Of a stretch of DNA of 33,890 nt, positions 25,077 to 25,521 are shown in pieces. This DNA comes from Nitrospira sp. SB0662_bin_26. Its GTDB lineage: Bacteria; Nitrospirota; Nitrospiria; Nitrospirales; UBA8639. Under the pieces are notes generated by a model. That model did no database searches. It was given only the letters and a program-made list of their open reading frames with translations, and was not told the origin of the DNA. Every line of letters begins with the position of its first letter. The stretch's first letter is position 1. The stretch is taken from assembly GCA_009840285.1 (NCBI GenBank), contig VXOF01000082.1, positions 1 through 33,890 on the forward strand, given 5' to 3'. The position numbers were made by a program, and so were the translations under genes.

Positions 25077-25106
25077 TTGACTTTGTTTGCGACGCTTCGC
25101 TACGAT
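25077..25106 (+). promoter_or_regulatory. Promoter of the tRNA-fMet gene
   Basis: TTGACT (25077-25082, 5 of 6) and TACGAT (25101-25106, 4 of 6) are spaced by 18 nt. The expected start of transcription (about 25112-25114) coincides with the mature 5' end of the tRNA, leaving almost no 5' leader. Confidence 0.55.
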
Positions 25107-25111
25107 GCCTC

Positions 25112-25469
25112 TGCGGGGTGGAGCAGTCTGGTAGCTCGTTGGGCTCAATACCGTGAGGAGTGATCCGCTGGTTGCGTGAAACATAAGCAACCCCTCCCAA
25201 CAATGAATGGGCTGTGCAGAAGGAAACTTCTGTACGATCACCTGTCAAATTCGGGGAAGCCGGTAGCGGGGTAACCCCGAGCCAAGCTGGCGGAGCCATC
25301 GCGCTCCGGCAGAAGGTGTAGAGACTTGACGGCAGGCATCCTAACGGCGGCAAAGCCGGTCCGAGGATGAAGAGAAAGTCCGGACCACGAACTGGATTCC
25401 CAGGCAGCGAAAGCTGTAGTGGCGCGCATAACCCAAAGGTCGAGGGTTCAAATCCCTCCCCCGCAACCA
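25112..25469 (+). tRNA. tRNA-fMet (initiator, CAT) interrupted by a group I intron
   Basis: The exons 25112-25145 and 25427-25469 join into a 77-nt initiator tRNA with CCA encoded. Acceptor stem is GCGGGG/CCCCGC, D-arm GAGC-AGTCTGGTA-GCTC, anticodon arm TTGGG-CTCATAA-CCCAA, and T-arm GAGGG-TTCAAAT-CCCTC. The three consecutive G-C pairs in the anticodon stem are the hallmark of bacterial initiators. Position 1 is T opposite A72, a weak U-A pair rather than the usual C1-A72 mismatch. The junction is placed after T33, giving an exon ending in U and an intron ending in G; a CA dinucleotide repeated at both borders means the cut could be 1-2 nt further right. Confidence 0.93.
25146..25426 (+). ncRNA. 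Group I self-splicing intron (IC3-like) in tRNA-fMet
   Basis: A 281-nt intron without an open reading frame. Core elements are readable and resemble the Azoarcus tRNA-Ile intron: TGTCAAATTCGGGGAAGCC (25243-25261, P3/J3-4/P4 region), CCGAGCCAAGC (about 25277-25287), and GGTGTAGAGACTTGACGG (25315-25332). P7 pairs GACTT (25323-25327) with AAGTC (25376-25380), a covarying version of the common GACTA/TAGTC. P3 pairs CCTG (25241-25244) with CAGG (25333-25336). P2 pairs GTGATC (25160-25165) with GATCAC (25236-25241), and inside it CAGAAG-GAAA-CTTCTG has a GNRA loop. P8 is closed by CATCC/GGATG, and P9 is CAGC-GAAA-GCTG (25403-25414). The last base is G (25426). CTCA (25144-25147) can pair with TGAG (25154-25157) as P1, but a U-G wobble at the 5' site is not evident. 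Confidence 0.93.
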
Positions 25470-25488: not shown

Positions 25489-25521
25489 GGGATCGTCCTC
25501 TCGGGGCGGTCCCCTTTTTTT
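25489..25521 (+). terminator. Intrinsic terminator of tRNA-fMet
   Basis: The stem GGGATCG (25489-25495) / CGGTCCC (25507-25513), 7 bp with one G-U pair, is followed by C and seven T. It lies 20 nt past the tRNA 3' end and closes a single-gene transcription unit. Confidence 0.75.

Follow-up and report, generated by a model that had tools for sequence, protein, structure and literature searches.

The window analyzed here is the whole stretch of 33,890 nucleotides of contig VXOF01000082.1 from Nitrospira sp. SB0662_bin_26. Its tRNA-fMet gene is divided into two exons (Table 1). Once joined, these form a 77-nt tRNA-Met(CAU) that shows initiator features, among them an anticodon stem with three G-C pairs. 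In intron mode, ARAGORN reports a tRNA-fMet at 25112-25469 with anticodon CAU, a GGG/CCC anticodon stem, an intron length of 281 and the insertion gggct^cataa. The same program makes no tRNA-fMet call at this location in default mode. Position 1-72 of the tRNA is U-A, a weak pair; this position is C-A in the E. coli initiator tRNA.

The split gene looks like a single-gene transcription unit, given that promoter-like hexamers lie upstream and a strong terminator lies downstream. The hexamer pair ends 6 bases upstream of the gene, and the consensus scan that detected it gave 0.2 matches on average in shuffled regions.

Table 1. Features of the split tRNA-fMet gene, with the tRNA-Asn intron of the same genome (last line)
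Feature	Position	Strand	Basis
Candidate promoter, sigma-70-like, TTGACT-18-TACGAT	25077-25106	+	Consensus scan, 9/12 matches
5′ exon of tRNA-fMet, nt 1 to U33	25112-25145	+	ARAGORN intron mode
Group I intron, 281 nt, between U33 and C34	25146-25426	+	ARAGORN boundaries, RF00028, covariation
Enlarged P1 loop without ORF; site of the endonuclease ORF in related introns	25146-25208	+	Least conserved part within the genus
Internal guide sequence GGCT (P1)	25210-25213	+	Pairs with 5′ exon GGCU, including U33·G; from sequence
P2 hairpin, 9 pairs, GAAA loop	25214-25235	+	Sequence, MFE fold
P3, 5′ strand (partner 25331-25336)	25241-25246	+	100% of cells paired; 5/6 pairs change on both sides
P4 (25251-25256/25275-25280) and P5	25251-25280	+	100% paired
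P6/P6a	25282-25316	+	Changes on both sides
P7, 5′ strand GACTT (partner AAGTC, 25376-25380); guanosine-binding helix	25323-25327	+	Pair test
P8 (25337-25342/25364-25369), extra hairpin in loop	25337-25369	+	96% paired; 5/6 pairs change on both sides
P9 region: base stem, CTGG/CCAG hairpin, CAGC-GAAA-GCTG hairpin	25385-25422	+	92-99% paired, changes on both sides
3′ exon of tRNA-fMet, C34 to encoded CCA end	25427-25469	+	ARAGORN intron mode
Intrinsic terminator, 3′ of the tRNA gene	25489-25513	+	11-pair stem, then T run
Group I intron of tRNA-Asn(GUU), 282 nt, between U35 and U36	L084:886-1243 (= G000:C18:13885-14242)	- (L084)	RF00028, 64.4 bits

Structure of the tRNA-fMet intron

The last base of the intron is the conserved terminal G (omega-G), and the 3′ junction reads ...GCGCG|CATAACCC. 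The Rfam group I intron model, RF00028, matches positions 25188-25395. The score of 45.1 bits (E = 2.3e-10, 481 bases searched) lies under the Rfam gathering score of 50 for this model. The intron is absent from routine annotation because its score is below this curated cut-off, and a scan of the window at the gathering cut-off gave no RF00028 report for it. A related fMet intron in G026, another genome of the family, scores 69.9 bits and thus exceeds the cut-off. Compared with shuffled sequences, the MFE fold of the SB0662_bin_26 intron has a z-score of -3.5.

A structure derived from the SB0662_bin_26 intron sequence was tested against 54 homologous introns. It comprises 42 pairs in P3, P4, P5, P6, P6a, P7, P8 and three P9 helices. 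The pairs form in 98.3% of cells, and in 25 of them both partners vary. In 500 shuffles, not one reached any of five covariation measures, and pairing falls to 30-50% when the partners are slid by 1-3 columns. The last pair of P7 is UA in 39 introns, GC in 9, CG in 5 and AU in 1, with zero mismatches. The homologs were recruited via the exon pattern and a P3/P4 motif, without using P7, P8 or P9, so these three helices constitute independent tests. The catalytic core (P3, P4, P6, P7 and P8) is conserved, and the pseudoknot formed by P3 and P7 contains compensatory changes.

Around the 5′ splice site, all 105 related introns examined have a guide GGGC a short way 5′ of P3. The ATG at 25207-25209 is able to pair with the exon CAU (P10), and a possible P10 of 2-3 pairs is present in 101 of the 105.

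The original prediction, made from the sequence alone, proposed a group I intron within tRNA-fMet, and this identity is confirmed by ARAGORN, RF00028 and covariation. Its gene coordinates and 77-nt initiator tRNA agree exactly with the ARAGORN intron-mode call. The P2, P3, P7, P8 and P9 pairings that it listed are all present, with covariation among the 54 relatives backing P3, P7, P8 and P9, and the covariation it claimed for P7 extends to all four Watson-Crick forms of the last pair. The RF00028 search that it proposed as a check yielded a real match, but one that falls below Rfam's curated cut-off.

Distribution of introns at this site

Among the other genomes of the genus searched, 10 of 13 carry the intron, with 80-97% identity over the gene. 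Thus, all 11 members in which an fMet gene is assembled have it, SB0662_bin_26 included. The draft assemblies G006, G007 and G013 contain no fMet exon anywhere, so fixation of the intron in the genus falls short of proof. In G006 and G013, whose completeness is 98-100%, the syntenic fMet spot is occupied by other DNA (L232, L233, L234). In the rest of the family and order, intact fMet genes prevail and introns are scattered. Within Nitrospirota, the intron-exon junction pattern was found in 14 of 296 genomes, belonging to 7 of 135 genera. Genome G045 was rejected as a case of interrupted fMet; the spacing of its exon matches reflects a run of N in the scaffold, and its anticodon loop is intact. 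Within the genus, the identity of the introns is lowest in the P1 loop (71% on average) and reaches 88-93% in the part from P2 to P7, as is expected if the ribozyme still works. Members of the genus are presumably sponge symbionts.

The genome of SB0662_bin_26 is a 2.2-Mb draft in 113 contigs that is 98.8% complete. Its 40 intact tRNA genes include an elongator tRNA-Met and no other fMet, and a search of the draft with the joined fMet exons found elsewhere only chance similarity to other tRNAs. In G009 and G010, relatives from the genus that are each assembled as a single contig, no fMet gene other than the split one was found.

In 84,980 species genomes, we looked for an intron-terminal G followed by the 3′ exon of fMet. 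At least 114 stretches matched this pattern. Most of those among the matches listed have a group I core and the identical insertion point, between U33 and C34, as in the other fMet introns retrieved. By record title, the matches listed represent about 18 phyla, with cyanobacteria and Omnitrophota the most frequent. Some of the single-phylum cases may be mis-binned contigs.

Several matches were set aside because they have no group I core, namely those in Bifidobacterium (L095, L146), Shewanella (L188), Omnitrophota (L099) and Chloroflexi (L107, L145). In L095, L146, L188, L107 and L145, the 3′ half of fMet is preceded by unrelated DNA; these are perhaps attachment sites of integrated elements. 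In three Acidobacteriota matches (L103, L178, L193), the insert linked to fMet resembles a group I intron, but its core is very divergent and sits on a long branch. Two of them, L103 and L193, have CATAACC at the 5′ side, and the Acidobacteriota inserts are perhaps located at a different site. These matches may therefore represent another insertion and are not to be counted on as U33|C34 cases.

Group I introns are already known in the fMet genes of Synechocystis and Gloeobacter, and 36 bacterial genomes in which group I introns hide fMet or Ile2 genes are reported with tRNAscan-SE 2.0 (PMC8450103). These cases represent the same phenomenon, in that an apparently missing fMet gene is explained by an intron. 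In its passages on these genes, that paper names cyanobacterial fMet cases and Ile2 cases in Acidovorax and Burkholderia, and does not mention Nitrospirota (PMC8450103). As of 2007, group I introns were known in four bacterial tRNA genes, and the Synechocystis fMet intron is 655 nt long with a 150-codon gene for I-Ssp6803I (PMC1995217). The SB0662_bin_26 intron shares its host gene and a similar group I core with that of Synechocystis sp. PCC 6803. By contrast, it has no endonuclease, its short P1 extension is unrelated, its host belongs to Nitrospirota and its core does not group with cyanobacterial cores. The Synechocystis sp. PCC 6803 intron was reportedly described by Biniszkiewicz in 1994 and by Bonocora and Shub in 2001. 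The IC3 ribozyme of Azoarcus, a group I intron in tRNA-Ile(CAU), is likewise compact and has no ORF, although its host tRNA differs. We take its core strings to be near-identical to those of the SB0662_bin_26 intron, e.g., GTCAAATTCGG and AAGGTGTAGAGACT. A literature search found no paper on a Nitrospira with a group I intron in fMet.

Endonuclease genes and a second intron

In fMet introns of about 600-700 nt, an ORF lies within the enlarged P1 loop. In a long Methylomirabilota intron, this ORF matches Pfam PDDEXK_5 (E = 4e-52) and the solved endonuclease in PDB entry 2OST (E = 1.7e-65), which we take to be the I-Ssp6803I encoded in the fMet intron of Synechocystis. The endonuclease-bearing relatives encode close homologs of this enzyme. 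The G026 intron has a nearly complete copy of the endonuclease and, at 655 nt, is exactly as long as the Synechocystis intron. The introns of L088 and L112 retain C-terminal remnants. There is no ORF in the 281-nt SB0662_bin_26 intron, and no endonuclease was found in the introns of its genus. Given that ORF-less fMet introns are common among the matches listed, the missing endonuclease reflects loss rather than exclusion from the I-Ssp6803I-type family.

Two fMet introns of 935 and 952 nt (L142 and L165, from Omnitrophota and Desulfatirhabdium records) have a LAGLIDADG-like ORF instead of the usual PD-(D/E)XK one, and Pfam LAGLIDADG_2 was confirmed for that of L165. Judging from the ORF sequences, the endonuclease family is swapped at one insertion site. 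In the long introns L098-L199, the endonuclease ORF extends into the ribozyme. Trp-Ala codons (TGG GCN) near the C-terminus of the endonuclease seem to overlap the guide GGGC, and the frame continues through P2 and P3 in several of these introns.

SB0662_bin_26 also has a group I intron in its only tRNA-Asn gene (Table 1), and the RF00028 score of this second intron exceeds the cut-off. It is present in 8 of the 14 genomes of the genus, and the other 6 have an intact tRNA-Asn. It also occurs in G316, a genome from a different family within the order. In G010, which is assembled as a single contig, the only fMet gene and the only tRNA-Asn gene are both interrupted. The tRNA-Asn intron of G009 (L209) is 347 nt long. 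Toward the 5′ end it has about 65 additional nucleotides that can be read as a short open frame and may be left over from an endonuclease gene. Bacterial tRNA-Asn genes with a group I intron did not appear in the literature that our incomplete search covered.

Origin and retention of the intron

In a tree of 108 intron cores, most introns of the genus form one clade (support 99). They fall with other introns from Nitrospirota and with those of Methylomirabilota (SH-aLRT 91), and the cyanobacterial introns are in separate groups. The G009 intron has the most divergent placement and does not resolve into the genus clade, but it shares the P1 extension. Given that the nearest relatives are introns of Nitrospirota and Methylomirabilota rather than those of cyanobacteria, the tree suggests that the intron was acquired long ago and has since descended vertically within the genus. 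An intron that entered by homing, subsequently lost its endonuclease and was then retained vertically would fit both the distribution of endonucleases and the core tree.

Alternatively, a cyanobacterium might have donated the intron recently, perhaps while living in the same sponge, as fMet introns are common in cyanobacteria and the cyanobacterial-type introns have an endonuclease family in common with the relatives studied here. This scenario is very unlikely, given the separate position of the cyanobacterial cores in the tree and the divergence of 80-97% identity within the genus, which points to long residence. The original prediction correctly regarded the genome as Nitrospira-like (the genus includes Nitrospira sp. 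bin75), but its suggestion of lateral transfer or an undescribed lineage is less apt, since the intron is shared by all members of the genus with an assembled fMet gene and introns occupy the same site in many phyla. A recent cyanobacterial donor, in particular, finds no support in a tree that groups the intron with those of Nitrospirota and Methylomirabilota.

About as doubtful is the idea that the split gene is a decayed pseudogene with a dead intron, and that the true initiator gene resides in unassembled DNA. The draft is in 113 contigs, which leaves room for such a gene, and a few other tRNAs are missing from the assembly. However, the exons are intact and identical in G009 and G010, single-contig genomes without another copy. 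Moreover, every core helix is kept and covaries, the core is better conserved within the genus than the P1 loop, and the promoter and terminator are in place. The reading of this gene as the only fMet gene is upheld in the 98.8%-complete draft and in both of these relatives. An insert of another kind, such as an archaeal-type tRNA intron or a mobile element, could explain why default tRNA and Rfam searches reported nothing. Yet the E-value of the RF00028 match, the terminal G, the compensatory changes in the P3/P7 pseudoknot and the same-site group I homologs with an I-Ssp6803I-type endonuclease all contradict it. Covariation over 54 introns rules this explanation out, and we assign it practically no chance.

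We are therefore highly confident that the sole initiator tRNA gene contains a formerly mobile group I intron that has lost its endonuclease and is kept by the need for splicing. Within this reading, splicing in vivo, homing in the past and selection in the present are what we infer. By analogy with the biochemistry of group I introns, the promoter, tRNA-intron-tRNA and terminator would be transcribed as a unit, and the intron would fold into P1-P10. A guanosine bound in P7 would attack after U33, and the freed U33 would then attack after the terminal G, joining U33 to C34 and releasing a linear intron. The product would be the mature initiator tRNA. The intron interrupts the anticodon loop, so a transcript that still contains it should be unusable as an initiator tRNA, and any use of the split gene would require splicing. 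The ancestor was probably a mobile intron with an I-Ssp6803I-type PD-(D/E)XK endonuclease in its P1 loop that entered intron-less fMet genes. In the genus, the endonuclease would have disappeared and the ribozyme would have been retained. We propose that the need to splice this intron for translation initiation is what now maintains the ribozyme.

One might go further and suppose that the homing-incompetent fMet intron, together with the tRNA-Asn intron of some members, has been domesticated, such that the rate of guanosine-dependent splicing limits the supply of initiator tRNA and couples translation initiation to GTP or Mg2+ status. We regard this extension as highly improbable.

The kind of element, the host gene and the region of insertion are already known. 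What stands out is that the host gene is essential and single-copy, that the intron is retained without an endonuclease and that a second tRNA gene is split. Hidden introns explain some of the fMet genes that appear to be missing from metagenome assemblies. Versions that bear an endonuclease, have a decaying one or have none occur at one nucleotide of an essential single-copy gene in many phyla, and constitute a data set for studying the cycle of gain, fixation and loss in homing. In the genus itself, every initiator tRNA, and in some members also every tRNA-Asn, appears to depend on splicing by a ribozyme.
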